Virus record (IMG/VR): IMGVR_UViG_3300030389_000587
Location: 562-23,876 of that record
From: a virus
Reading direction: 5' to 3' (one strand)
Length of the DNA: 23,315 nt
In this document: positions 10,106 to 22,147 of the stretch, one piece after another
Position numbering within the stretch: the first letter of the stretch is position 1
Layout: each line of letters starts with the position of its first letter
Position numbers and translations under genes: made by a program
The notes under the pieces: model-generated
The model's input: the letters and a program-made list of their open reading frames with translations, nothing else
What the model was told of the DNA's origin: nothing
Databases searched by the model: none

Positions 10106-10489
10106 CTACAGACCACTTGTTGTATTTCTATTCTGTGCAAATTCTTGTATGCTTGCAACAACATGAAGTCTATTTGCAGTTGCCGCTTGTACTTTCAAAA
10201 TCTCTCCACCTTGTAAGATTAAATCATTTGTTAGTAGCTCAATTGTTGTATTGGCAGCTACTGCTTTTACTTTAAATAAGCTAAAGACAGTGCCTGCACC
10301 AGTTACTAAAGTTACTGTTATAGTATCTGCATTACCAGAATCCTCTGAAACTAAAATTGATGATACAATCGATGAGTTAAAATCTGAACCACTTGGTGCT
10401 GTGTATAATACTGTATTATCAGTAGATGTTAAATCAAGTTTAGCATTTGTAATATTCTGTATATATTGAGGTATAGTTGTAACTAACAT
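10106..10489 (-). CDS. small beta-rich structural protein, unknown role
   Basis: The 127-residue protein is made almost entirely of short beta strands separated by Ser, Thr, Gly and Asn turns: for example TVLYTAPSGSDF, ISSILVSEDSGNADTITVTL read as strands, and EILKVQAATANRLHVVASIQ at 96-115. No charge clusters, cysteines or membrane segments are present. This layout fits a small virion decoration or appendage protein with a beta-sandwich fold. Its start shares one base with the stop of the gp10-like tail hub gene, so the two are probably made in step, and it may attach to that tail part. No family is recognised with confidence. Confidence 0.55.
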   Translation of the reverse strand: MLVTTIPQYIQNITNAKLDLTSTDNTVLYTAPSGSDFNSSIVSSILVSEDSGNADTITVTLVTGAGTVFSLFKVKAVAANTTIELLTNDLILQGGEILKVQAATANRLHVVASIQEFAQNRNTTSGL

Positions 10490-12357
10490 TATTGTCTTCC
10501 ATCTGGTCTAACATCAATCCTTGGTGTACCTAATCTCCATGATACACCCTGATCTGTTGATTCAAGTTTCATATTAAATGATCTTCCTCTTAGCCTTACA
10601 TCAATACGATCTGTAAATTGCTCGACTGGTGTTGTTGCTGTTCTAGAAGATGTACCACCTGAATTTGTGTCATATGTGCTACCAGGTCCGTTTCTAGCTT
10701 GTAAAGTAAAAGTGACATTTGGATTGCCTGTATTGCTAGTTGATCCATTAAAACTAACGTCTGGAATAAGTTGTCGTATAAAAGAAAATTGATAGCCATC
10801 ACCAATATCTATTTGACTTGATTCTACAGATGCAGTCATTGGATTAACATCGTCATCATTGCCATTTTCATGCTCAAATAAATGTGGAGATCCTGCAGCT
10901 ATTGGAAATCTTCTAATACCTCGATCATGCCATGCAGTTCTACTTAAAGTCCCATAATACCAAGTTTTGTTAGAATAATTATAAATTACATACTTATCAT
11001 TTTCTTCAGAACTTGCAGATGGATAAAACCACCAAACCTCTGTCCATTGAGTATTTACACCACCAAAAACTTTTTGACCTTGCGAATTATTAAAATCAAG
11101 AAATATTTTATCTCTTACAGTGCATGGTAATTGAGTAGTTTGACCTCCTGTATAAACATAAAAACTTTCTTTACCCATCCAAAACACTGAATCTTCTACA
11201 GCTATTGCAGATTTAGGACTCATAATGGTTATGCTTTTTGATAATTCTTGCAAACCGAAGGTAAATGGAGGTCCGATAAATCTCATACTAAATAGACTTC
11301 TGTCTGTAAAAACTAAAATTTGTTGTCTTGTTTCAACAGCTTGTATAAATTCTGATCCACTACTTAATCGTAAATCACCAGCAGTATTAGTTGCAGTTGG
11401 TGTGAAATCAACTAATGATTCCTGTGATCCAAATCTTATTAATAAAGGATCTTGTGTCGTTGTGCCTAATGTGTTTGCACCAAATGCTATAATGTGTCTG
11501 TCTATATCAGATACCATGATTTGCCTAGCAATAGTAGGCACATCTGATGCTCCACTTTCACTTGAAAGCAACACTGCTCTATTGCCTAATCCATCAGATT
11601 TATCCCAGTAAAAAATACCACCATCTCTTGGATTAATTAACAAATCTTCACCAAAATTGTCATGTGTCCACAATCTAATTTCATTTGTTGTGCCTGTTGC
11701 TGCTGCTTCACCCCAACCAAATGTTGATAAATCTAAGTTTACACCACCATATCCACCTGCACCCCATCCAACACCACCAACAGCAGTGTCTAGTCCTACG
11801 TTAATTTGGTAACTTCCATCAACTCCCGACCCACCATTTCCAGTGTCGGATGAATTAGCAGTTGCACTTACTGTTATCTTATATGAGTTTGAATTAACAA
11901 CTGTTGTTATTTGATGTTCTGCATTCAATATCGTTGCAGTAATATTACCACCTAAACTTACTGCACCTGATATAGTTACAAAATCATTTTGAACTGCACC
12001 ATGAGAACTGTCTGTTACTGTAAGTTCAGCAGATCCATCACTTGCCGCAAATGTAATGCTATTAGTTGATGTTTTTCTTATAGGAGTAATATCAGTAAAA
12101 CTACCACCTTCTTCTATGTAATATTTAAGATGAGAACCCACTCCCATAAAGTTTGAGCCATCTAAAGCTAACCAATTGTGTAAAGCTCTAGCAGTACCCA
12201 AATATGTATTGCCAGATTGTTTTACCCAACCACCTATTTTTTCTGGAAAAGGTGTGTAAAATCTAACTTTTTCACAATCAAAATATCCACCCTCGTTTGA
12301 AAAAGAAGTAATTTCTCTATTTATACCTGGTCTAAATTTTAAACTTGTTAGTGGCAT
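10489..12357 (-). CDS. P22 gp10-like tail hub / DNA-stabilisation protein (622 aa)
   Basis: The N-terminus MPLTSLKFRPGINREITSFS, the following CEKVRF motif and FPEKIGGW are characteristic of the gp10/tail-tubular-B type structural proteins of short-tailed phages. The rest is beta-rich with repeated Gly-Asn turns, as expected of a beta-propeller-like hub. Residues about 96-190 look like an inserted Ser/Thr/Asn-rich beta domain (TNSITFAASDGSAELTVTDS). These proteins lock the DNA in the head and join the gp4-like adaptors to the needle and receptor-binding proteins. Two gp4-like genes lie upstream in the same operon (20360-21004, 21315-21983), which supports a P22-like tail, but here they are separated from the hub by the fibre and oxygenase genes. 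The exact family name is from recall. Confidence 0.75.
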   Translation of the reverse strand: MPLTSLKFRPGINREITSFSNEGGYFDCEKVRFYTPFPEKIGGWVKQSGNTYLGTARALHNWLALDGSNFMGVGSHLKYYIEEGGSFTDITPIRKTSTNSITFAASDGSAELTVTDSSHGAVQNDFVTISGAVSLGGNITATILNAEHQITTVVNSNSYKITVSATANSSDTGNGGSGVDGSYQINVGLDTAVGGVGWGAGGYGGVNLDLSTFGWGEAAATGTTNEIRLWTHDNFGEDLLINPRDGGIFYWDKSDGLGNRAVLLSSESGASDVPTIARQIMVSDIDRHIIAFGANTLGTTTQDPLLIRFGSQESLVDFTPTATNTAGDLRLSSGSEFIQAVETRQQILVFTDRSLFSMRFIGPPFTFGLQELSKSITIMSPKSAIAVEDSVFWMGKESFYVYTGGQTTQLPCTVRDKIFLDFNNSQGQKVFGGVNTQWTEVWWFYPSASSEENDKYVIYNYSNKTWYYGTLSRTAWHDRGIRRFPIAAGSPHLFEHENGNDDDVNPMTASVESSQIDIGDGYQFSFIRQLIPDVSFNGSTSNTGNPNVTFTLQARNGPGSTYDTNSGGTSSRTATTPVEQFTDRIDVRLRGRSFNMKLESTDQGVSWRLGTPRIDVRPDGRQ

Positions 12358-12374: not shown

Positions 12375-12923
12375 CTATACTACATCAATATTCATTAAAT
12401 TAGTATCAATATCTAACAGATTAACATTACAACTTATAATTGTTTTTCTATCATTTGTAACTATAGCAGGAGATCTATGTGGGATAAAAGATGGAAAAAC
12501 TACAATATCACCCTCTTTTACATCTAATGTAAATTTTTGTTTTTTAGTTGTATCATAAAATTCAGTATTATAGTTTTTATCATTTAACTCAACATAGTAA
12601 ACCCAACTAATATTTGTTTGACCATGATTATGCCAAGAGTGATTATCATTTTTATAATATTGCTGAAACCAACAATTAGTAATCGTAAAATTTTCAACAC
12701 AATAATAACTCATAAAATCTTTAGCAAAATCATCTAAAATATTTGCAAAAGTGGCAAAATAAGGTCTTTCTGTGTGATGATTATTATTACGAAAATCTGT
12801 ATATGTTATTGAATCTAAATCATTTTTTTCAATTCTTTTTTCGGTAACCTTAAAAGTATCTAACAAATTAGATTTTATATCATTGTGATTTTTTAAATTA
12901 TATGACCAAACTAAATCTTTCAT
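12375..12923 (-). CDS. 2-oxoglutarate/Fe(II) oxygenase 5 (HNHG type)
   Basis: The 182-residue protein carries a double-stranded beta-helix oxygenase signature: HSWHNHG with H98 and H100 (H95 nearby) as the first metal ligands, ISWVYYV after it, then LDVKEGDIVVFPSFIPH ending in the distal ligand H149, and R159 or K160 as the likely 2-oxoglutarate anchor. The layout fits the putative 2OG-FeII_Oxy_5-type group. It would hydroxylate or otherwise oxidise a substrate that the sequence does not reveal. It is the last of five oxygenase genes and its start overlaps the stop of the preceding one in ATGA. It is clearly related to oxygenase 3 (13482-14024), with nearly the same LDVKEGD and PSFI-x-H segment. 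The gene is strongly A+T-rich. Confidence 0.8.
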   Translation of the reverse strand: MKDLVWSYNLKNHNDIKSNLLDTFKVTEKRIEKNDLDSITYTDFRNNNHHTERPYFATFANILDDFAKDFMSYYCVENFTITNCWFQQYYKNDNHSWHNHGQTNISWVYYVELNDKNYNTEFYDTTKKQKFTLDVKEGDIVVFPSFIPHRSPAIVTNDRKTIISCNVNLLDIDTNLMNIDVV

Positions 12924-13504
12924 TTAAAAGGCTCTCCACAAAACCATGTAACTAAAGAATATCTAATACCTTTTGTAACTGGTTTAACTCTATGCATCAT
13001 ATAAGATGGAAAAACAATAATAGTTCCTCTTTTACCTAAAACTTGTTGTCTTCCAAAAAATTCAAATTCGCCACCCTCATATTCATCATTTAATATAATA
13101 GACATTGATAATTTTCTTGTTTTGCCATGAACAAATTTGTTGCCATTATCGAACCTTGTAAATCCATTACCATCTTGATGAAATTTAAAATGACCATTTT
13201 TATTATATCTAGCCAATTGCATTGCTTCACACGCATCTATTTGAAAGTTCCAATTAGAATTACGATTTGCAATATCTAAATAGTTCCAAACCAAATCATA
13301 TACCCATCTTTCGTTACACCAAGTAACATCTGTTATTCTTTCATAGTGATTTTCTTTGTTTTCACCATTCAAATTTTGATGTACCTTTGCTGGATACCAA
13401 TCTTTTGCCAAACCTATTATTTCATCACAGATTTTTTTATCTACTTCTCTTTCAAAGTACCAATATTCATCATTTGCATTATTATCTATTAGTGGGGCTT
13501 CCAT
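12920..13504 (-). CDS. 2-oxoglutarate/Fe(II) oxygenase 4 (PKHD/prolyl-4-hydroxylase type)
   Basis: The 194-residue protein has the classical facial triad of 2-oxoglutarate oxygenases: H109-x-D111 in KFHQDGNG and a distal H171 in FPSYMMHRV, with R181 in GIRYSLVTWF as the 2-oxoglutarate anchor. The order YNKNGHFKFHQDG, LSMSIILND, GGEFEF and VFPSYMMHRV matches PKHD-type hydroxylases related to YbiX/PiuC. It is the only one of the five with an intact canonical HxD, so it is the safest to call active. Its substrate is unknown; protein prolyl or other side-chain hydroxylation is typical of relatives. The start overlaps the end of oxygenase 3 by 23 bases, and its stop overlaps the start of oxygenase 5. 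Confidence 0.85.
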   Translation of the reverse strand: MEAPLIDNNANDEYWYFEREVDKKICDEIIGLAKDWYPAKVHQNLNGENKENHYERITDVTWCNERWVYDLVWNYLDIANRNSNWNFQIDACEAMQLARYNKNGHFKFHQDGNGFTRFDNGNKFVHGKTRKLSMSIILNDEYEGGEFEFFGRQQVLGKRGTIIVFPSYMMHRVKPVTKGIRYSLVTWFCGEPFK

Positions 13505-14024
13505 TTTTCATATCCCAAGATATTATTCTTTTCAAAGATTTAGATTTATTTTGCTGTGTAAAATGATTTATAAAAGATGGCACTACTAAAACATCCCCCT
13601 CTTTTACATCTAACACAGCATAAGTGCTTTTGTCTGTCAAAAAATTGTTCCAAGGTTGCAAAAAAGATGTTTTTGGTGCGTCTGTTGGCAATGTAAGATA
13701 TAATATACAAGACAAACCAACTGAACCATGATTATGTATAGGGTGGTAGCCATTTTCTTTGTATGTAACTGACCAAACATCAGATACATAAAAATCTGTT
13801 TTGAAAGCATTTACTATTGATTGTAACTCATCACGCAGTATGTTTGTAAACTCTTTGTTGACCAATTCTGTATCATATCTATTAGAGCTAAAATTTGCTA
13901 ATTCTTCATCATTTTTCTTTTCATCAAAAGGTTCAAATAAAGTTATTAATTTTTGTTTTTTCAAAGCAAAGTTTTTCACTGATGACTTACAAAAAGGTAT
14001 TGAAAAAAGATTACCAATGTTCAT
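13482..14024 (-). CDS. 2-oxoglutarate/Fe(II) oxygenase 3 (HNHG type)
   Basis: The 180-residue protein has YHPIHNHGS with H97-x-H99 (H94 nearby), the strand GLSCILYLTLP, then LDVKEGDVLVVPSFINH with the distal H154, and R166 in LKRIISWDM. This is the same plan as oxygenase 5, and the two share the LDVKEGD and PSFI-x-H residues almost exactly, so they are probably ancient duplicates with the PKHD-type gene now between them. The first ligand pair is H-x-H rather than H-x-D. It starts one base after the stop of oxygenase 2, with a GAGGG ribosome site inside the end of that gene. Substrate unknown; a phage structural or host protein is possible. Confidence 0.75.
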   Translation of the reverse strand: MNIGNLFSIPFCKSSVKNFALKKQKLITLFEPFDEKKNDEELANFSSNRYDTELVNKEFTNILRDELQSIVNAFKTDFYVSDVWSVTYKENGYHPIHNHGSVGLSCILYLTLPTDAPKTSFLQPWNNFLTDKSTYAVLDVKEGDVLVVPSFINHFTQQNKSKSLKRIISWDMKNGSPTNR

Positions 14025-14025
14025 T

Positions 14026-14616
14026 TTAGCTACCCTCGTTTTTAATAATACTTAAATTGAAAGATATTGCTATTCTACTTTCACTCATGTTTAATTCAAC
14101 TGAATGAGGCAAATCAGACTTCCAAATTAATATACCACCTTTTTCTGGACGAAAATACCACTCACTAGAATTATACTTATTGTATTCTGTAAATTTATAA
14201 GCACCATGTGGATCGTTTACAAATTCGTATCTATGGAATACTAAATTTGCACTATTTGGTTCGGAATGAACATAAAATGTGCCACTTAAATCACAATACC
14301 CAGAATGACCATGCACTCTATGTTGACCATATTTATACATCTCTGACACCCAAATACTTTCTATGTTAATTTTTTCAATGTTCAGTATTTGTAGTTTTTC
14401 ACAATATGCAAAAGCATTTTTATAAATGAAATCATATAAAATTTTAAATTTATTGTGATACTCTTGCCATATTTTATCATTGTAATATGATGTTTTGCCA
14501 AACTTATATCTGTCATCTTCTGGAATATTAGTCAAAATAGATTTGCAAGGTTCTAACACAGCATCTGCCACAGATTCATCTTGATCTATTTGTATATAAG
14601 TTGTGAATAAATCCAT
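14026..14616 (-). CDS. 2-oxoglutarate/Fe(II) oxygenase 2 (2OG-FeII_Oxy_5-like)
   Basis: The 196-residue protein contains YGQHRVHGHSG with H99, H102 and H104 as candidate metal ligands, the strand SGTFYV (111-116), the segment PEKGGILIWKSDLPHSV with the distal H171, and R181 before IAISFNLS. The order SG-x-x-YV, G-x-L-I-W, L-x-H-x-V, R-I-A-I-S-F-N is the hallmark of the PF13759/TIGR02466 group of putative oxygenases. The substrates of that group are not well known. It begins immediately after the prolyl-hydroxylase-like gene, using a GGAAG ribosome site inside that gene's last codons, so the two are probably translated together. Confidence 0.8.
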   Translation of the reverse strand: MDLFTTYIQIDQDESVADAVLEPCKSILTNIPEDDRYKFGKTSYYNDKIWQEYHNKFKILYDFIYKNAFAYCEKLQILNIEKINIESIWVSEMYKYGQHRVHGHSGYCDLSGTFYVHSEPNSANLVFHRYEFVNDPHGAYKFTEYNKYNSSEWYFRPEKGGILIWKSDLPHSVELNMSESRIAISFNLSIIKNEGS

Positions 14617-15195
14617 TTATTCTTCCCAAATATAACTATACCAACCAGTTACAATGGTTTTTTCTTGTGTTTTTGATATTTGACCAACATGGGTATGTGT
14701 CCAATCTGAGGGAAATATAACAGTTTTACCTTTTTGTGCCTTAACTGTTCTATTTTGATATGGAAATATTGTGCCACCTGAATCTAAATCATTTAAATAT
14801 GTCATAAACACCAAACATCTTTTAATGGTAAGGTCATTATAACCACATCTTTCAAAATGTTCTCTTTTAAATCCCTCACCTTTTTTGTAATGTTGAATAT
14901 TATAAGGTTCAACAATATCAAATCTACAAAGATTATCAATTTTTGGATAAGTTTGTATGTAATCTTCTAAACATTTTTGTAAATAAATTCTGTAATCTTT
15001 AAATGGTTGATTAAAATTTTGAGGTGAAATGCCTATATCTGTTGATTTTTTTATATCAGCCCAACTTTCGTCTCCATTAATAACTCCCTTGTGATGAAGT
15101 TTTGGATTTAAGTTATAAAATTCTAATATGGCATCACAGATACCCTCTGGAATATGCCAAGTATAAATAAAATCGTTTTTAGTCTGAGTCAACAC
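14617..15195 (-). CDS. 2-oxoglutarate/Fe(II) oxygenase 1 (prolyl-4-hydroxylase-like)
   Basis: I choose the GTG at 15193-15195, giving 192 residues. It has AAGG eight bases upstream (15204-15207) and overlaps the previous gene by only 17 bases. An ATG at 15303 would add 36 unlikely residues and overlap that gene by 125 bases. The prolyl-4-hydroxylase core is clear: IQHYKKGEGF, then REHFERCG with H113 and E115, LVFMTYLND, GGTIF, FPSDWTHTHVG with the distal ligand H167 or H169, and K179 in EKTIVTGW as the 2-oxoglutarate anchor. H-x-E replaces the usual H-x-D; I recall the same change in cyanophage relatives. It is the first gene of the oxygenase cluster, after the fibre genes. Confidence 0.85.
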   Translation of the reverse strand: MLTQTKNDFIYTWHIPEGICDAILEFYNLNPKLHHKGVINGDESWADIKKSTDIGISPQNFNQPFKDYRIYLQKCLEDYIQTYPKIDNLCRFDIVEPYNIQHYKKGEGFKREHFERCGYNDLTIKRCLVFMTYLNDLDSGGTIFPYQNRTVKAQKGKTVIFPSDWTHTHVGQISKTQEKTIVTGWYSYIWEE

Positions 15196-15595
15196 GAAAC
15201 CAACCTTGTGAATTATCTTTTTGATAAGCATCTTCGTCCCAATAATAATCATTGGTATCTGATGGATATGGTATGGGAGACTCCCATTCACAAGTAGTTT
15301 CATTTAATGTCCACGAGGCATATTCACATGGCTCGTAAAACGCATCTCTGACTGAATCATAAACGCCACCTATAATTGCATAATTTTTTCTTAATGCTTT
15401 ACTTTGGTCTTCAGAAGGCGTGTTTTTTTCTTCAGGTGTTGAGTCGACATCAGATGGTACATAATGAATACCACCACGAGTGTTGTATGAAGTTTTAATC
15501 CACGTTTCGTTTTCTGGTAATGTATCTATAAATTCTTTTTTTGCGACTATAACATCAACAACTTTACCATCTACTACTTTTGCATAATGTCCCAT
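15179..15595 (-). CDS. small conserved phage protein next to the fibre genes, function unknown
   Basis: The 138-residue protein starts MGHYAKVVDGKVVDVIVAKK and contains ETWIKTSYNTRGGIHY, IIGGVYDSVRDAFYEPCEY and SWTLNETTCEWESPIPYP, followed by a Trp- and Asp-rich tail. I recognise this set of motifs from small proteins found beside tail-fibre and prolyl-hydroxylase genes in marine T4-like phages, but no function is established to my knowledge. The two cysteines (in EPCEY and TTCEW) and many aromatics suggest a compact beta-rich fold. It lies between the glycine-rich protein and oxygenase 1, so it may be a fibre accessory or a substrate or partner of that enzyme. That link is inference. Confidence 0.65.
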   Translation of the reverse strand: MGHYAKVVDGKVVDVIVAKKEFIDTLPENETWIKTSYNTRGGIHYVPSDVDSTPEEKNTPSEDQSKALRKNYAIIGGVYDSVRDAFYEPCEYASWTLNETTCEWESPIPYPSDTNDYYWDEDAYQKDNSQGWFRVDSD

Positions 15596-15599
15596 AATC

Positions 15600-16580
15600 T
15601 TAACTCTGAAATTGATATTTTATAACTACCACACCTGAACCACCATTACCAGTCAACCTATTTCCTTCATGATCTCTAGTGCCTCCCGTTCCAGAACCAG
15701 TATTTGCAGTTGCGTGTGCAGAACCATTAGAGCTACTACCACCAGCAGATGCACCTCCTCCACCAGAGCTACCACCAGTGAAAGTGCCACCACCTCCGCC
15801 TCCTGCTCTTGCAACAGATGAACCTGTTATTGATGAAGATGAAGATGAACCACCAACAGAGTTTCCACCACCAGCACCTCCAGAGCCTCCACCACCTCCG
15901 CCAGAGAGGTCAGCTCTATTACTTCCTGATTGACCAGAATTGCCTTGTCCGCTTGTACCACTTCCTCCACTTGATGATGGCGCACAGCCACCTCCACCAG
16001 AGCCACCAGCACGACCAGGTTTATTGGAATTGCTTAATCTTCCACCACCTCCACCGCCGCCAGTATTGGTTAAACCTAATGCAGAGGTGTTTCCACCATT
16101 TCCACCAGCAGTTCTTGCACTTGTGGTTCTAACACCACCTCCACCACCACCAATGGTTATTGTATAATTTCCTGCTGACAAGCTAGAGTTACCAGTTCTA
16201 TAACCACCTGCTCCTCCGCCACCACCTGTGTGCTGACCACCAGCTCCACCTCCTGCTACGATAAGGTGTGAAAAAGTTGTACCTTGATTGCCAGCAGTAG
16301 AAAGAGCGAATGTTCCAGATGAATTAAATACATGAATTTTAAAGTTACCACTTGTGGTTACACTACCACCAGTAGCAGATGGATATACAGCATTTTCTGA
16401 GCCTCTAAAATCTCCCATATCTAAAGCACCAGATGTCGGAATGTTTCCATTATTACCTGAAGTTCCTGACGGAACATTAGAGCCACCAGCATAATATTCA
16501 CTCATACTTATTGGATTAGAACCACCAAACTCCGTTTGGATGTCAGACATTGCTATCGAGCCAGATGATGGTATTGCCAT
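15600..16580 (-). CDS. glycine-rich adhesin-like virion protein (326 aa)
   Basis: The N-terminal 60 residues (MAIPSSGSIAMSDIQTEFGG, then NPISMSEYYAGG) form a pattern I recognise from marine phage virion proteins, probably the attachment domain. From about residue 110 to the end the protein is a series of glycine runs (GGGGGAGG, GGGGGG, GGGGGGG) separated by short polar loops rich in Ser, Asn, Thr and Arg, with NYTITIGGGGGG near 137-149. Such layouts are used by distal adhesins, where poly-glycine II helices hold variable loops that touch the receptor. The opposite strand is therefore full of CCA/CCT triplets. It lies directly after the S74 fibre gene, so it may sit at the fibre tip. The binding role is inferred. 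Confidence 0.7.
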   Translation of the reverse strand: MAIPSSGSIAMSDIQTEFGGSNPISMSEYYAGGSNVPSGTSGNNGNIPTSGALDMGDFRGSENAVYPSATGGSVTTSGNFKIHVFNSSGTFALSTAGNQGTTFSHLIVAGGGAGGQHTGGGGGAGGYRTGNSSLSAGNYTITIGGGGGGVRTTSARTAGGNGGNTSALGLTNTGGGGGGGRLSNSNKPGRAGGSGGGGCAPSSSGGSGTSGQGNSGQSGSNRADLSGGGGGGSGGAGGGNSVGGSSSSSSITGSSVARAGGGGGGTFTGGSSGGGGASAGGSSSNGSAHATANTGSGTGGTRDHEGNRLTGNGGSGVVVIKYQFQS

Positions 16581-16583
16581 TTA

Positions 16584-17996
16584 CTACCCCTTTTTTAATT
16601 CATCAATTTCTGCTTTTAAGTCTTTAATTGCCTCAATCAAGACTGCTGTAAGTTTACCATAATCTACTGATTTTGTTTGCATTTCATCATCAGCAGTTAG
16701 AACAATCTCTGGCACTATAGCTTCCATATCTTGTGCTAATACACCTATTTGTGGTTTTGCATCTTCTACATCATTTCTCTTATAGTGAACGCCTTGCATC
16801 TGCATAACTTTTTCTATGCCATTCTCTATATTAGAAATATCAGTTTTTAATCTTTTATCAGAAAAGGCAGTTACATCATTGTTAAATGTAGCCGCTCCTG
16901 CACCAGACATATCAAGTGTAAGGGCAGTTATAGTTGAGCCACCATCATTACCTTTAAATATAATGTCTTTGTCGCTAGCTTGTGAGTTAAAAGTAGCGTG
17001 AGAATCAGCAATACCTAAATTTAATACATTAGTGCTTCCATCTGCAAACATAATGTCTCCACCATCTGCATTAATAGAAATATCATCTGATGAATCTAAT
17101 ATTAAATCACCATTAGGAGTAGCTATAGTTCCATTTGTGCCATCACTTGTGAGCGTAAGGTCAGCACCAGCACCTAATTTTATTAAAGCATTATCCACAA
17201 AAGTAGCATCGTGGTTAAACGCCGCCGTTCCAGCATCTGACATATCAAGTCTTAAAGCAACAACATCACTTGTGTCATCAACTCCTACAAATTCCATATC
17301 TTGATTGTTAACAGCACTTTTAATTCTAAAAAAATTTGAATTATTTTTTAACTCTCCAATGGTAGTGCCACCATCTTTGAATAATATATCTCCACCATCA
17401 GCATCAAGAACAATATCTCCAGCTACATCAACAGTTAAATCACCAGTTGCATTTGTAATAGTTCCAGCAGATCCACTATGTGTAATTTGTAAATCATTGT
17501 CTGCACCTACATTTAAAACAGCAGAGTCTGAAGTTAAACTTAAATCATCTTGAACTTTTAGGTCAACAACAGATAAAGAGGCAAAAGCATCAACAACTGC
17601 CGCTCCACTTCCTGCACCATCTAGGTAAACTACTTTAACATCACCAGGTGGAATTGTTACATTTGCACCAGAGCCTTGTGATATGATTATGTTTTGTGAT
17701 CCACTTGTAGCGTTCTCAATCATATGAACTCTTTTTAAAGTATTTGGACCTATGGTTATTGTACACGCAGAATCTAATGTTCCAGTATATTTAATATACA
17801 TGGCTCTACCTTCATCTGCTGAACCATCTGCTATGTTAGTAGTGTGTGTATCTGCATTTGTTGTTATAGCTTCTGTACCAAAACCTAATGCCTCACCTAT
17901 TAATTCTAAATTTGTGTTGGTTGAAGCACCCCATGTTCCTGATTCATCACCTGTGGCTATTTCTTTCAACCTGAGATTATTAGTATATTCTGCCAT
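16584..17996 (-). CDS. tail fibre with C-terminal S74 self-cleaving chaperone (470 aa)
   Basis: Residues 379-384 are SDKRLK, the start of a peptidase S74 (intramolecular chaperone of endosialidase) domain that runs to the end: KTDISNIENGIEKVMQMQGV, then IGVLAQDMEAIVPEIV and a final coiled coil. In this family the Ser of SDxR and a following Lys cut the chaperone off after it has guided trimer folding. The N-terminal part (1-70) should bind the tail. The shaft is beta-rich with repeats: the units at about 185-216 and 296-327 both read GDL...DI...DADGGDI-like segments, and the ALxLDM segments at 247 and 358 repeat again about 111 residues apart. It shares its first base with the WG-repeat gene. 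It very likely contacts the host surface. Confidence 0.85.
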   Translation of the reverse strand: MAEYTNNLRLKEIATGDESGTWGASTNTNLELIGEALGFGTEAITTNADTHTTNIADGSADEGRAMYIKYTGTLDSACTITIGPNTLKRVHMIENATSGSQNIIISQGSGANVTIPPGDVKVVYLDGAGSGAAVVDAFASLSVVDLKVQDDLSLTSDSAVLNVGADNDLQITHSGSAGTITNATGDLTVDVAGDIVLDADGGDILFKDGGTTIGELKNNSNFFRIKSAVNNQDMEFVGVDDTSDVVALRLDMSDAGTAAFNHDATFVDNALIKLGAGADLTLTSDGTNGTIATPNGDLILDSSDDISINADGGDIMFADGSTNVLNLGIADSHATFNSQASDKDIIFKGNDGGSTITALTLDMSGAGAATFNNDVTAFSDKRLKTDISNIENGIEKVMQMQGVHYKRNDVEDAKPQIGVLAQDMEAIVPEIVLTADDEMQTKSVDYGKLTAVLIEAIKDLKAEIDELKKG

Positions 17997-18871
17997 TATG
18001 CGACCCTTTCAATCCAATTTGCTACTTGATCTGGAACGATTAAACCCCAAACATTCTCTTCTCCAGTAGAACCTGTAGCACTTACTCCACTCAAAGATAA
18101 CACAGAACTAGCAGTTATTGCAACTGTTCCTAAAGAAATTGTTGCTTCAGATAATGTTACCTCTACCAAAGCTCCTGCTGTTACAGTTTCAGAGCCAAGT
18201 GCAGTAGTTCCAACAACTGTCGTTACTGGTGCGCCAGTTGTGGTTGTGATAAATTCGTCACCTAATCCTGTAGTTCCAGCAACACCAGTAGGTGAAATTA
18301 ATGCAGTTCCTACAACAGATTCATCACCAAATCCTATTGTTCCAGTTAATCCAGTTTCAGTTACTATAGCTCCAGCAGCTGCTAAAGCATTTCCTACAGC
18401 AGTTGTTCCTGCGTTACCTGTTACAGAAAAAATACCTGTGCCAGTTACAGTAACTGTTCCTACAGATCCAGTAGCCACAGCAGGAGTTGGCACAATATCT
18501 TGACCAGGTATAGCGGCTACACCACCACCCCAGACTCCAGCACCCCAAGTATCATTACCCCAACCAGTTAAAAAACCAATTGTTGCAGACACACCTGTGA
18601 CTACAGCAGTAATTGGTATTTTAGGAAGAACAGTGCCAACAGCAGTTGTGCCAGATACACCAGTTACTGCAAATTGGAAGTTAGCAAAAGCAATTACTGT
18701 GCCTACTGCACCTGTGGCTTCTAAGCCAGTTTCTATTACAGTTGAGCCACCTGTTGCACCTTCATCACCAACGGCTGTTGTACCAGCTACTCCAGTAACA
18801 GCAAAAGAGGTGTTGCCTATACCACCCCAACCAACAGCACCCCAAGTGCCTTGTCCCCAGCCGTTAGCCAT
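17996..18871 (-). CDS. WG / VTG-repeat beta-rich virion protein (291 aa)
   Basis: The protein begins with tryptophan-glycine motifs (GWGQGTWGAVGWGG), which recur in the middle at GWGNDTWGAGVWGG. Between and after them are about ten degenerate repeats of roughly 20-23 residues built on VTGVAGTTAVG, for example at the start, AVTGVSGTTAVGTV, SVTGNAGTTAVGNA and ISPTGVAGTTGLGD. It ends WGLIVPDQVANWIERVA, a Trp-rich tail that I associate with the same type of protein in marine phages. No charged clusters or enzyme motif are seen. The layout suggests a repetitive beta fibre or a head/tail decoration. A GAGG ribosome site precedes it; its stop shares a base with the S74 fibre start. Confidence 0.65.
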   Translation of the reverse strand: MANGWGQGTWGAVGWGGIGNTSFAVTGVAGTTAVGDEGATGGSTVIETGLEATGAVGTVIAFANFQFAVTGVSGTTAVGTVLPKIPITAVVTGVSATIGFLTGWGNDTWGAGVWGGGVAAIPGQDIVPTPAVATGSVGTVTVTGTGIFSVTGNAGTTAVGNALAAAGAIVTETGLTGTIGFGDESVVGTALISPTGVAGTTGLGDEFITTTTGAPVTTVVGTTALGSETVTAGALVEVTLSEATISLGTVAITASSVLSLSGVSATGSTGEENVWGLIVPDQVANWIERVA

Positions 18872-18891
18872 AGAACCTCACAATTGTTCGG

Positions 18892-19347
18892 TTAAGCTAT
18901 ACGAATAATAGCGTTCGAAGCGTCAGCAGTAGGAAATTGTATTGTAAAAGTCCCAGATGTTGATGTTTTATTAGATGAAAAGTCTAAAACACAAACAGCT
19001 TTGTTACTGTCAGAACTATTATAAATTAATGCTCCCATCGCAGTAATTGTTGCAGTTGTGAAACTTAAATCAGCAAAATCTGTAAATGCAGTTGTGCTTG
19101 ATGTAGTTGGGTCTACTCTTGTTAAAGAACCACCACCAGTTGCATATGTGCCACTTGAAGCGACTTCACCAGTTGTAGTAAATGCAGTAGTTGTTGCTCC
19201 TAATGTTGCAGTTGTAGATGATTTACCACCACTGCCCTCTGCATAGAGTGCTAATTTAAAAGTATCTCCACCAGAGTTTTTAAAATTGTGTACACCTTCT
19301 AATAACTCTTTTTTGAAGGAAGTACACATTGCTTGTGCTATAGCCAT
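18892..19347 (-). CDS. conserved small structural protein (151 aa)
   Basis: The start MAIAQAMCTSFKKELLEGVHNF, the segment DTFKLALY, the long Ser/Thr/Gly-rich middle and the ending GTFTIQFPTADASNAIIRIA form a pattern I recognise from many marine phage genomes, where it sits among virion genes. The first 20 residues are an amphipathic helix and the rest is beta-rich. No enzymatic motif is present. It is probably a virion component, such as a decoration or tail protein, but I cannot say which. It begins one base after the end of the 95-residue gene in the same operon. Confidence 0.65.
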   Translation of the reverse strand: MAIAQAMCTSFKKELLEGVHNFKNSGGDTFKLALYAEGSGGKSSTTATLGATTTAFTTTGEVASSGTYATGGGSLTRVDPTTSSTTAFTDFADLSFTTATITAMGALIYNSSDSNKAVCVLDFSSNKTSTSGTFTIQFPTADASNAIIRIA

Positions 19348-19348
19348 A

Positions 19349-19636
19349 TTAGAGTCTCCTTATATATTCAGCCGTTTCCTTTTGACCACTTGATCTCAAG
19401 GCTTGAATGATAGTACCACGCTCTTCTCTTCTTGCCAATAGTAGATAATGATACAACACCTTTTTAAGATGTTCTCTAAATTGATTTGCTTGTTGTCTTA
19501 TGTGAGCTGGAGCGTCATCAGATATACTTACAATCTTATCTACAGCTAAATCAGCAATCTGTTCATTTGTCAAACCACCTTTATCTGAAGTCATAACATT
19601 GACCTTACCTGCTTGAGATACTCCTACATTAAACAT
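19349..19636 (-). CDS. small conserved helical phage protein (95 aa), function unknown
   Basis: Residues 20-35 (KGGLTNEQIADLAVDKIVSI) and the rest of the protein are helical. A charged stretch in the middle (IRQQANQFREHLKKVLYHYL) is followed by LLARREERGTIIQALRSSGQ and the end TAEYIRRL. The strongly helical, Arg-rich C-terminus could bind a partner protein or nucleic acid. No cysteine, metal site or membrane segment is seen. It lies directly after the Rossmann-fold gene and before the 151-residue structural gene, with only single-base spacing, so it is made with them. No function is proposed beyond a virion-module accessory. Confidence 0.6.
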   Translation of the reverse strand: MFNVGVSQAGKVNVMTSDKGGLTNEQIADLAVDKIVSISDDAPAHIRQQANQFREHLKKVLYHYLLLARREERGTIIQALRSSGQKETAEYIRRL

Positions 19637-20347
19637 TTATTTCTCCTCATATGTTACACCAGGTATATCTTCTCTGCCAATAATGTTTGGAGTTGAATCC
19701 AAAGGCTCTGGTGGATTTAATTTCGATTTTCTTGTTATTAACATACTTCCTTGTGTAGTTGTAGACACGATAGGATCATCAAGTCTATGGTATCCATAAA
19801 GTTTTTGATCTTCTTTTACATTTGTATCTAACAAAGATGAATTGTGTGCAATGTTTACTTTGATACCTTTTGATATAGCAATTGCTAACCAAAATTCACA
19901 ACACCCTCTACCTGCTTCTGCAAAAGCAACATTGTTGTAAGTAAAATCAATACCAAATAAATGTATCTCTTTTACCTCTTGTGCAATTGCAAAAGCTATG
20001 CTGTATGCGACTGTGTTATTCAAATAAGCATATTTTGTTTTCTGCAAAACTTCCTGAAGTGGATATTCTACGACATCTGGACACCTTTTGTCTAAGGTGC
20101 AAGAAAAGATTGGCACACCTAATTTTGTTTTCAGTCTTTCTACCATTATATTTGTTTGTTTACCAGCATTCGGACTATCTAAAAATCTTGAAGGAGGATC
20201 TAACATAAAACATTTATCGTGATAGATAACACCTGACATTGAATTTATTGTCCAGACCTCATCAAACTTTTCGCTTCTGATCCTAGACATTAGATATTCG
20301 CTACTACTATTGCCTAATCCAACAATGGCAATACTTTTTATTTTCAT
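19637..20347 (-). CDS. Rossmann-like protein resembling GT42/DUF115 transferases
   Basis: The 236-residue protein opens with IAIVGLGNSS (7-15), a nucleotide-binding type turn. It then has VWTINS (31-36), NNTVAYSIAFAIA (110-122) and EIHLFGIDFTYNN (127-139), followed by CCEFWL (149-154). The sequence of a helix with small residues, then E-I-x-L-x-G-I-D-F, is the same order as in GT42 sialyltransferases and in DUF115 proteins. This suggests a transferase using an activated sugar or a related nucleotide. I do not see all known catalytic residues, so activity is uncertain. It sits among structural genes, just after the gp4-like adaptor, so it may modify a virion protein or the host surface; this is inference. 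Confidence 0.55.
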   Translation of the reverse strand: MKIKSIAIVGLGNSSSEYLMSRIRSEKFDEVWTINSMSGVIYHDKCFMLDPPSRFLDSPNAGKQTNIMVERLKTKLGVPIFSCTLDKRCPDVVEYPLQEVLQKTKYAYLNNTVAYSIAFAIAQEVKEIHLFGIDFTYNNVAFAEAGRGCCEFWLAIAISKGIKVNIAHNSSLLDTNVKEDQKLYGYHRLDDPIVSTTTQGSMLITRKSKLNPPEPLDSTPNIIGREDIPGVTYEEK

Positions 20348-20359
20348 TTTGCTACCTTT

Positions 20360-21004
20360 TTATTGTTTTGGGATTCTTACCAAGCCCTCCCTATAGGCAT
20401 CTGTATTTTCTTGTGCCTCTCCATATACTTTTAGTCTGCTCATGGCTTCTGTAAATCTTGCAGTATAAAGTTGCAATAAATCTGACTCGCCTTTCATAAA
20501 AGTGTAAGCCTCTACTAAACAAGCATATAACAAAGCATCAGGAGCATTTGTTGCAATCCAAGTCGTTCCAGAGTCATCTGTAGTTATCGATGCTGGTCTA
20601 TAATAATAATGTAATTCGGCACTGTAATCTGCGTCAGGTGTTGGTGCTACGATAAAATTGTCCACATCGAATGAAGAATAATATCTAGGACTACCTGTTG
20701 TGCTAGGATTTGGAGTAAATTCTTGTATAAAATTTACATCTTTTTGTAAAAGAAAAACATTTGCACTATCTTTTACATAAGATAAAGAAAAAGTGGCTAA
20801 ATAATCAGATGGTTTTTGTAAAAATTTATTACCAGTTGTTAAACCACCAGTTACATTTTTTCTAAAATAATCTAAATCAACTACTTTAAATATACGTTCT
20901 TCAGCATTCTTAATTATAAAATCAAGTTCATTTACAAAAGTAGTTTCTGAATTTTGTGTCCAATCTTGTATTGATTGTTTTAAAGTAGTTAAAGTAAAAC
21001 TCAT
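20360..21004 (-). CDS. head-tail adaptor, gp4/gp11-like (first copy after the 104-aa gene)
   Basis: The 214-residue protein begins with TLKQSIQDWTQNSETTFVNE, then NAEERIFKVVDLDYFRKN, SDYLATFSLSY, and later YYRPASITT and DALLYACLVEAYTFMKGESD before a final helix (YTARFTEAMSRLKVYGE). This helix-strand-helix layout is typical of phage adaptor proteins that form the ring under the portal, such as T7 gp11 (tail tubular A) or P22 gp4. It lies in the same operon as another protein of similar plan (21315-21983), separated by a 104-residue gene. Two adaptor rings are therefore possible. A four-base overlap with the 104-residue gene supports coupled translation. The exact family is by pattern. Confidence 0.7.
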   Translation of the reverse strand: MSFTLTTLKQSIQDWTQNSETTFVNELDFIIKNAEERIFKVVDLDYFRKNVTGGLTTGNKFLQKPSDYLATFSLSYVKDSANVFLLQKDVNFIQEFTPNPSTTGSPRYYSSFDVDNFIVAPTPDADYSAELHYYYRPASITTDDSGTTWIATNAPDALLYACLVEAYTFMKGESDLLQLYTARFTEAMSRLKVYGEAQENTDAYREGLVRIPKQ

Positions 21005-21315
21005 GTTACACTCACTGTTACTGTACCAACTGATGCTGTTGCACTAAAGGTATCTAATAAAGTACCTATGTTTCCTAGTCCAGTATTTGTATATACTATA
21101 AATTTTTTATTATCATCTTTTACGTCTGGTCTAGCATCTCTAATTGCTTCTAAATCAGTTCTAATTCTTGGAGGAGTAAGTTGTGGATGTTTTTCTTCAT
21201 ATTCATCATAACCAACGATACTACCATTCCACTCCTTTCTCATATCTCTTATACGATAACGAAATCCAGAACGATCTGAAATTCTGTAAGCATATTTACC
21301 TTTAGCAAAAGCCAT
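21001..21315 (-). CDS. small conserved structural-module protein (104 aa), function unknown
   Basis: Residues 1-60 contain AFAKGKYAYRISDRSGFRYR, EWNGSIVGYDEYEEKHPQL and TPPRIRTD. I recognise this set from small proteins next to adaptor genes in marine phages. The protein is basic and polar at the start, then helical (TDLEAIRDARPDVKDDNKK). It ends with a beta stretch SATASVGTVTVSVT that resembles the repeats in the WG/VTG protein (17996-18871). It lies between the two adaptor genes, overlapping the downstream one by four bases and the upstream one by one base. A role as a connector accessory is inferred from position. Confidence 0.65.
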   Translation of the reverse strand: MAFAKGKYAYRISDRSGFRYRIRDMRKEWNGSIVGYDEYEEKHPQLTPPRIRTDLEAIRDARPDVKDDNKKFIVYTNTGLGNIGTLLDTFSATASVGTVTVSVT

Positions 21316-21983
21316 TATCCAACCCTATAGTATGATAGTTGTGGATTAACCTTAAAAGCAGATCTGTCTCTATCTTCTGCCATAGCTCTTTCAAACTCTT
21401 CTTCATAAACAGTTTTAAGTAGCTGTATTCTGTCTGGCGCACGTTTCATAGCAATATAATAAGCCAAGCCAGCAGTTAAACATGGAAAAAATCTAAAAGG
21501 TATTTCCAACGTATTTACTTGTGTATCGGCATCTTGCATTCTTGTTAAAGCATCATAGATAATTACATCTGTGCTATTTTCAGGAGCAGGATATATTTTA
21601 AGGTTAGGTGTAATTTGTCTGTCCAAAAAGTATTGAGTTGGTCTGCCAGTTGTAGATTTATTTGGTAAGTTTAAATAAGTATCTCTACTTATTCTGCTCA
21701 TACTAAAATCAGTATCACTTCTTCTAACAACCAAAGATAAAACATCAATAACATCAGTGCCAAGGCTATACTCTATGCTATCTGCTGTTAAAGCTTGTGT
21801 TCTTTGCTCTATAGTCCATTGATTTAAGCCACGATTTGCCCACTCTGCCAACATGATGTTCATAGAACGTCTGGCTGTTTGCAAATCGTAGCCTGTTCTA
21901 GCTTCTAAGCCACATCGCTCAAAAGCTTCTTCAATGTACTCTGCAACATCCAATTCAAAATTAGTTGAACTTGACAATGCCAT
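21315..21983 (-). CDS. P22 gp4-like tail accessory factor / head-tail adaptor (222 aa)
   Basis: The protein has the layout of P22 gp4-type adaptors. An N-terminal helix pair (VAEYIEEAFERCGLEARTGY, then TARRSMNIMLAEWANRGLNQ) is followed by a beta domain with EYSLGTDVIDVLSLVVRR and LKIYPAPENS. Last comes a C-terminal helix with FFPCLTAGLAYYIAMKRAPD and ending in TVYEEEFERAMAEDRDRS. These proteins bind the portal ring and extend it to receive the hub and needle. Its start overlaps by one base the stop of the 54-residue KKM/GGG gene. Together with the gp10-like hub at 10489-12357, it points to a P22-like short tail. A lytic activity reported for P22 gp4 cannot be judged from this sequence. Confidence 0.8.
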   Translation of the reverse strand: MALSSSTNFELDVAEYIEEAFERCGLEARTGYDLQTARRSMNIMLAEWANRGLNQWTIEQRTQALTADSIEYSLGTDVIDVLSLVVRRSDTDFSMSRISRDTYLNLPNKSTTGRPTQYFLDRQITPNLKIYPAPENSTDVIIYDALTRMQDADTQVNTLEIPFRFFPCLTAGLAYYIAMKRAPDRIQLLKTVYEEEFERAMAEDRDRSAFKVNPQLSYYRVG

Positions 21984-22147
21984 TAAGCTTTACCACCTTT
22001 TTTCATTTTTTTAGCCATGCCACCACCACGCATTTTTTTGGCAGCGCCACCACCCATCATTTTTTTGACCTTACCTCCAGCCATCATTTTAGCTGCTTTT
22101 TTTAGTTGATCGCCCATAGCGTTCATTTTTCTAGGACTCATTGCCAT
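21983..22147 (-). CDS. 54-aa Lys/Met/Gly repeat protein, highly basic
   Basis: A short gene translated by me from the minus strand: ATG at 22145-22147, stop TAA at 21983-21985, 54 residues. It starts MAMSPRKMNAMGDQLKKAAK and continues with three imperfect repeats of K-K-M followed by glycines (VKKMMGGG, AKKMRGGG, AKKMKKGG), ending KA. Apart from one aspartate it has no acidic residue, and it carries about 17 Lys or Arg. An AGGAG ribosome site lies about seven bases upstream (in AAAGGAGAGTAAA). It overlaps the upstream A+T-rich gene by ten bases and shares one base with the start of the gp4-like adaptor. Such a peptide should bind DNA or an acidic protein; a DNA-condensing virion component is a guess. 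Confidence 0.7.
   Translation of the reverse strand: MAMSPRKMNAMGDQLKKAAKMMAGGKVKKMMGGGAAKKMRGGGMAKKMKKGGKA

Follow-up and report, generated by a model that had tools for sequence, protein, structure and literature searches.

Arrays of divergent Fe(II)/2-oxoglutarate oxygenase-fold genes that change in step with adjacent adhesin genes in phage structural operons

Fe(II)- and 2-oxoglutarate (2OG)-dependent oxygenases are common in marine phages, where they are usually discussed as metabolic helpers. In the T4-like cyanophage S-SCSM1, 24 2OG-Fe(II) oxygenase genes have been reported in one phage (PMC9602691). The sets of S-SCSM1 and of S-RSM4, also a T4-like cyanophage, are drawn from the same PHROG families as the arrays presented here (61, 81, 2954, 274 and 2297) with several genes in tandem. 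In S-RSM4 the genes ahead of a nine-member array, which has two other genes interspersed, encode a giant tail fibre, a Gly-rich protein and a phrog_7759 protein, an arrangement similar to that of our locus. The cyanophages are large myoviruses with many 2OG genes elsewhere in the genome (in cyanomyoviruses, related oxygenase genes are also found among the replication genes), whereas the podovirus-sized relatives of our locus concentrate them in the adhesin block. The HTVC023P-type pelagiphages have eight types of 2OG genes (PMC9599517). Several non-orthologous genes are located in the structural region of HTVC023P and HTVC027P beside the same tail gene as here, but they are described in that paper as nearby, not adjacent, and are paired with a 'ferrochelatase'. 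Mizuno et al. found Fe(II) oxygenases among the host-recognition genes of under-recruiting metaviromic islands (PMC3909814); the accessible text of that paper counts them, like tail fibres, among the hypervariable genes for host recognition, which resembles the present case, but holds no description of arrays, orthogroup turnover or adhesin association. Both the presence of multiple 2OG genes in marine phages and the occurrence of Fe(II) oxygenases within islands for host recognition are thus already published. No description of contiguous arrays or of adhesin coupling was found in the open-access literature, and within that limit the new elements are contiguous and fast-reassorting arrays of six subfamilies, an array make-up that tracks the adhesins, and three PHROG subfamilies that are probably mislabelled.

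The window used in this work is the whole stretch of 23,315 nt and covers a viral contig of 23.9 kb almost completely. A structural operon on the minus strand encodes, in this order, an S74 fibre, a Gly-rich PF21722 protein, a phrog_7759 protein, five consecutive oxygenase-fold proteins (g1-g5) and a phrog_3287 tail protein. The tail fibre with its Peptidase_S74 intramolecular chaperone (16584..17996) was identified by PF13884 (58.4 bits) and tail-fibre PHROGs, the Gly-rich adhesin-like protein (15600..16580) by PF21722 (50.3 bits, cut-off 24.3) and phrog_2295, and the small protein that recurs on the 5' side of oxygenase arrays (15179..15595) by phrog_7759 (9e-25). Gene maps of S-RSM4 and HTVC023P also have phrog_7759 located 5' of the oxygenases. 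On the other side of the array, a conserved tail structural protein (10489..12357; phrog_3287, 7e-63) is referred to as the hub, a name taken over from an earlier sequence-only reading of this DNA; the corresponding annotation in DSL-LC04 is 'stabilization protein'. The hub is 40% identical to the DSL-LC04 protein and 29-30% identical to those of HTVC023P and HTVC027P. That reading had placed the oxygenase genes between receptor-binding genes and the tail hub, and this location is confirmed. The array genes overlap or abut. The GTG start of g1 at position 15195 lies a few bases ahead of the phrog_7759 stop codon, so that these two overlap, and g3/g4 and g4/g5 share 23 and 4 bases, respectively, as expected if they belong to one operon. 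The GC content of the array is 28% compared to 38% in the upstream structural block.

All five open reading frames (ORFs) passed the Pfam gathering cut-off (27 bits in all cases) as Fe(II)/2OG oxygenases, and all matched phrog_61 or phrog_81 with E-values of 4e-29 to 4e-37 (2e-34 for g1 against phrog_61 and 4e-29 for g3 against phrog_81). PF13640 was found in g1 (14617..15195 from the GTG start, the longest ORF reaching 15303) with 35.3 bits and in g4 (12920..13504) with 57.3 bits, and PF13759 in g2 (14026..14616), g3 (13482..14024) and g5 (12375..12923) with 49.4, 38.9 and 36.4 bits, respectively. For the NCBIfam subfamily TIGR02466, with a cut-off of 62.5 bits, g2 scored above (74.4) and g3 and g5 below (33.5 and 31.1). 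The PKHD-like 2OG oxygenase g4 has the pattern HxD...H...R of PiuC and is similar to it in sequence (solved relative PiuC 9ghl, E 1.2e-7), yet its score is below every PKHD equivalog cut-off (47.8 bits for PRK05467, where 143 is required), and g4 is only related to the PKHD-type hydroxylases (PiuC/YbiX).

Pairwise identities among the five proteins are 17-33%, which together with separate nearest relatives for each gene rules out a recent tandem duplication. Orthologues in related loci were 69% identical for g2 (locus L098), 67% for g3 (L011) and 67% for g4 (L010). Against orthologues, dN/dS was 0.12-0.30 where dS was finite (0.15-0.23 for g1), rough values with dS near saturation, which indicates that all five genes evolve under purifying selection. 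Chance or misread ORFs are ruled out by the intact frames, the Pfam and PHROGs matches and dN/dS. A scan of a genome collection with g4 gave only matches of 24-39% identity, mostly from alphaproteobacterial and other MAGs, and therefore no host or donor is named.

The ligand residues are those listed in the sequence-only reading. H113-x-E115 (counted from the GTG), a distal His and a Lys anchor are present in g1, H109-x-D111, H171 and R181 in g4, and H-x-H, a distal His and an Arg or Lys anchor in g2, g3 and g5, with Arg in g2. The patterns HxE..K, HxD..R and HxH make up the minimum of three subtypes proposed in that reading. In g1 (HxE) and g4 (HxD) this is the 2-His-1-carboxylate triad; HxH...H is found instead in g2, g3 and g5, possibly as a three-His metal site, and we infer that these HxH members also use 2OG. 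An alignment of 200 array proteins covering six subfamilies was constructed in order to bring the active-site residues together, and here the first metal His is conserved in 100%, the distal His in 99% and the anchor R/K in 96% of the sequences. HxH was found in 64/64 PF13759-type relatives, and in the PF13759 family alignment (22% mean identity) W85, H98, H100 and H149 are likewise invariant. All phrog_274, phrog_2954 and DUF6445 types carry HxD, with the anchor Arg in 27/27, 18/20 and 6/6, respectively, and the phrog_61 proteins have either HxE with Lys (32) or HxD with Arg (25), the exceptions being two HxH/R sequences and one gap. With active-site residues conserved to this extent, degenerate or purely structural copies are unlikely.

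Pfam and PHROGs identify five different and consecutive 2OG-oxygenase-fold genes, and for g5 structure prediction agrees. The AlphaFold2 model of g5 (pLDDT 88) has the superfamily fold including the double-stranded beta-helix core, which for g1-g4 is assigned by Pfam match. Among solved structures, 2rg4 (Z 17.2) and 3bvc (Z 16.8) are the best relatives of the model; PKHD enzymes and prolyl hydroxylases come next, the latter with Z 14. Both 2rg4 and 3bvc are roseobacter PF13759/TIGR02466 proteins that have the fold and the H-x-H...H in common with g2, g3 and g5, but they are cellular proteins of unknown function with approximately 15% identity. A phmmer search with g5 alone gave no match among the PDB sequences; a family profile search instead recovered both structures.

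Three array subfamilies have other labels in PHROGs: phrog_2954 is called 'ferrochelatase', phrog_274 'DNA endonuclease V' and phrog_2297 'DNA endonuclease'. DUF6445-like array members are filed as 'minor coat protein' (1644). With few exceptions, the members of all four carry HxD...H and an Arg anchor, and in the phrog_2954 genes of sister arrays HxD...HWR is invariant. A phrog_2954 member was modelled with AlphaFold (pLDDT 86), and the fold matches listed for it include P. putida P4H, PHD2 and SnoN at Z 15-17 but no ferrochelatase; no ferrochelatase family of Pfam or NCBIfam was matched by phrog_2954. Motif, model and lack of a family match thus speak against a ferrochelatase, and phrog_2954 is predicted to have a prolyl-hydroxylase-like 2OG fold. 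The motif and the profile similarity to the other subfamilies suggest that phrog_274 and phrog_2297 should be reassigned to the oxygenases as well. In two published papers the phrog_2954 family was treated as ferrochelatase and its co-occurrence with 2OG oxygenases was discussed (PMC9599517, PMC11561400). The predicted fold undercuts both claims of a phage ferrochelatase, which were the basis of ecological and genomic conclusions; by this prediction, what was taken for a ferrochelatase accompanying the oxygenases is an oxygenase-fold protein too.

A scan with the hub protein resulted in 80 viral loci, from which the six subfamily profiles were made and then checked against PHROGs. Among 23 dereplicated close relatives, this stretch included, 22 have 1-8 array genes in the interval that separates the adhesin from the hub (range 0-8 for the whole set). 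Together with the 24 genes of S-SCSM1, this corrects the sequence-only reading, in which one or two such genes were taken as known and five as unusual. Ten array genes in a row are found in L015 and L016, where the hub has 728 amino acids and which are not in the close set of 23. HTVC027P has three adjacent genes at the same place on the opposite strand (gp72-gp74), and HTVC023P has gp65-gp67 and gp71 there. The oxygenase genes are thus linked in the relatives and not scattered.

The hub is found in all 23 close relatives with a median identity of 81%. The array genes of the same loci fall into 37 orthogroups, the commonest of which is present in 8/23 loci only. In the window, g1, g2 and g4 are as in L030 and L098 and g3 and g5 as in L011, so that the array looks like a mosaic. 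A PP-loop/QueC-like gene is also present in two arrays. The staged oxidation suggested in the sequence-only reading found no evidence, and the variation in enzyme set and order between close relatives argues against a fixed pathway.

Array composition follows the adhesin genes, with a partial Mantel r of 0.63 (p 2e-4, n=22) when controlling for hub divergence, and the hub, i.e. the downstream tail gene, is a poor predictor (r 0.20). The association was 0.57 without the first array gene, 0.74 for the first gene alone and 0.30 for the last gene alone, and this fall along the array implies that linkage by distance contributes. The Mantel test does not separate function from shared recombination blocks, since block structure alone can yield co-inheritance. 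An array is present in 17/18 loci with Gly-rich/phrog_7759 genes versus 11/41 without (Fisher p 1.4e-6) and, counting distant loci only, in 4/5 versus 2/31 (p 0.0012); both p-values are optimistic because loci share ancestry. The order Gly-rich, phrog_7759, array recurs in the cyanomyovirus S-RSM4 and, with one gene between, in HTVC023P. A block of Gly-rich, phrog_7759, g1, g2 and g4 is found in a 53-kb phage contig, possibly incomplete, in which no hub homologue was detected. Some relatives have their arrays beside unrelated adhesins. As a strict partner of the array, phrog_7759 is ruled out by the phages Bellamy, Melnitz-3, CRP-207 and zth2-2, which have phrog_7759 and no oxygenase within 8 kb. 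Overall, the array forms part of the host-recognition section within the structural operon, and its composition changes fast and together with that of the adhesin genes beside it.

We tentatively favour the reading that the reassorting array of Fe(II)/2OG oxygenases, with prolyl-hydroxylase/PKHD fold, hydroxylates the phage's own adhesin module, which we regard as quite possible while still short of probable. The oxygenases would be produced late, together with the structural proteins (the accessible text on the HTVC027P transcriptome gave no timing for gp72-gp74), and would hydroxylate side chains of the Gly-rich protein, the phrog_7759 protein and/or the S74 fibre ahead of virion assembly, each enzyme having a separate target site. 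A joint swap of enzymes and adhesin would then alter or stabilise the receptor-binding surface. Indirect support for targets in the adhesin module comes from the adhesin-coupled turnover and from the order Gly-rich/phrog_7759/oxygenase in unrelated phages; no direct study of phage tail-fibre hydroxylation was found in the open-access literature. A more far-reaching version, which we consider rather unlikely, is that the arrays of up to ten divergent oxygenases are combinatorial cassettes for post-translational modification, swapped as a unit with matching adhesins, where the hydroxylation pattern on the receptor-binding proteins helps set host specificity. The adhesin-coupled arrays point to a part played by protein modification when the host is recognised, and HTVC027P, HTVC023P and S-RSM4 are cultured phages with arrays that are open to direct tests.

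Host proteins as targets are a serious rival to adhesin modification. EF-Tu or ribosomal proteins, for example, could be modified so that translation in the infected cell is tuned or protected, in the manner of cellular P4H, YcfD-type and OGFOD1/Tpa1-type enzymes. With the phrog_2954 model, the nearest solved bacterial enzyme whose substrate is known was Pseudomonas P4H, in a structure where it binds EF-Tu, and OGFOD1 and Tpa1 are among the fold matches of g5. A housekeeping target would, however, be expected to go with a stable gene set, whereas the 37 orthogroups turn over and track the adhesins, and the oxygenase genes sit in the structural operon; we place this explanation on the unlikely side.

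Modification of a host envelope or surface molecule (superinfection exclusion or receptor masking), or countering of a defence, with a diversity that reflects host-strain variation, would fit a hypervariable cassette adjoining host-range genes, as well as the Fe(II) oxygenases in the under-recruiting islands of marine phages in the accessible part of PMC3909814. This is nonetheless clearly unlikely, as the proteins are small and single-domain, with no signal sequence or membrane segment noticed by eye, and the recurring partners are virion-type genes and not envelope enzymes. It is quite improbable, too, that the adhesin-tail spot is a passive cassette which gathers late cargo, and where oxygenases of differing targets accumulate by recombination linkage. 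The decreasing association from first to last gene, the PP-loop/QueC-like gene and the low GC content of the array would be explained, but the cargo is nearly all of one superfamily where a neutral site would gather other genes too, and the association holds without the first gene.

An auxiliary metabolic role has been proposed in cyanophages and pelagiphages (PMC3037559, PMC9602691, PMC12753301), by which such genes would shift the 2-oxoglutarate/nitrogen status of the cell or its use of iron. This role is very improbable here, as many divergent paralogues, individually conserved active sites and adhesin coupling would be left unexplained. Nucleic-acid oxygenases for AlkB-like repair or base modification are hardly credible either: a role in repair was put forward for relatives in cyanophages that are located next to UvsX/UvsY (PMC2984593), and AlkB is low among the fold matches of g5 (Z 14), but protein hydroxylases, PKHD enzymes and natural-product oxygenases rank higher, though within approximately 3 Z units, and the genes are located in the structural operon away from the replication genes.

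Three proteins of the family phrog_2954, named 'ferrochelatase', are encoded in related viral loci (L024:8059-8742, L115:8295-8915 and L120:14076-14711). This name looks wrong, because HxD...HWR is invariant in these proteins and a structure model of a phrog_2954 protein has a prolyl-hydroxylase-like fold. Relatives of phrog_2954 were found in 156 phage records, many of them with ferrochelatase as the annotation. Members of phrog_274 ('DNA endonuclease V') and phrog_2297 ('DNA endonuclease') at L028:4675-5319, L020:3407-3913 and L120:10237-11227 carry HxD...H...R, are located within the tandem oxygenase arrays and, judged from sequence, are probably misannotated 2OG oxygenases.

In phrog_61-type array proteins from many loci, ligand and anchor are strictly paired as HxE with Lys (n=32) or HxD with Arg (n=25), the tally also holding two HxH/Arg proteins and one gap. 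This pairing suggests two functional subtypes.

At 28%, the G+C content of the window array (12375-15195) is lower than that of the structural block at 15600-22000 (38%) and that of the hub gene (36%), which encodes a conserved tail protein. A block of the Gly-rich adhesin-like protein, the small protein phrog_7759, and oxygenase genes g1, g2 and g4 is present in L098, a possibly incomplete contig of 53 kb in which no hub homologue was found; the block therefore appears mobile between tail types.

Among the structural genes of the window, a 236-aa protein (19637-20347) matched no Pfam family and lacked a significant hit in PHROGs; it is missing from many distant relatives and has a median conservation of 80% in close ones. 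Two oxygenase arrays contain a PP-loop ATPase/QueC-like gene near the hub (L025:8720-9382 and L029:9279-9944).
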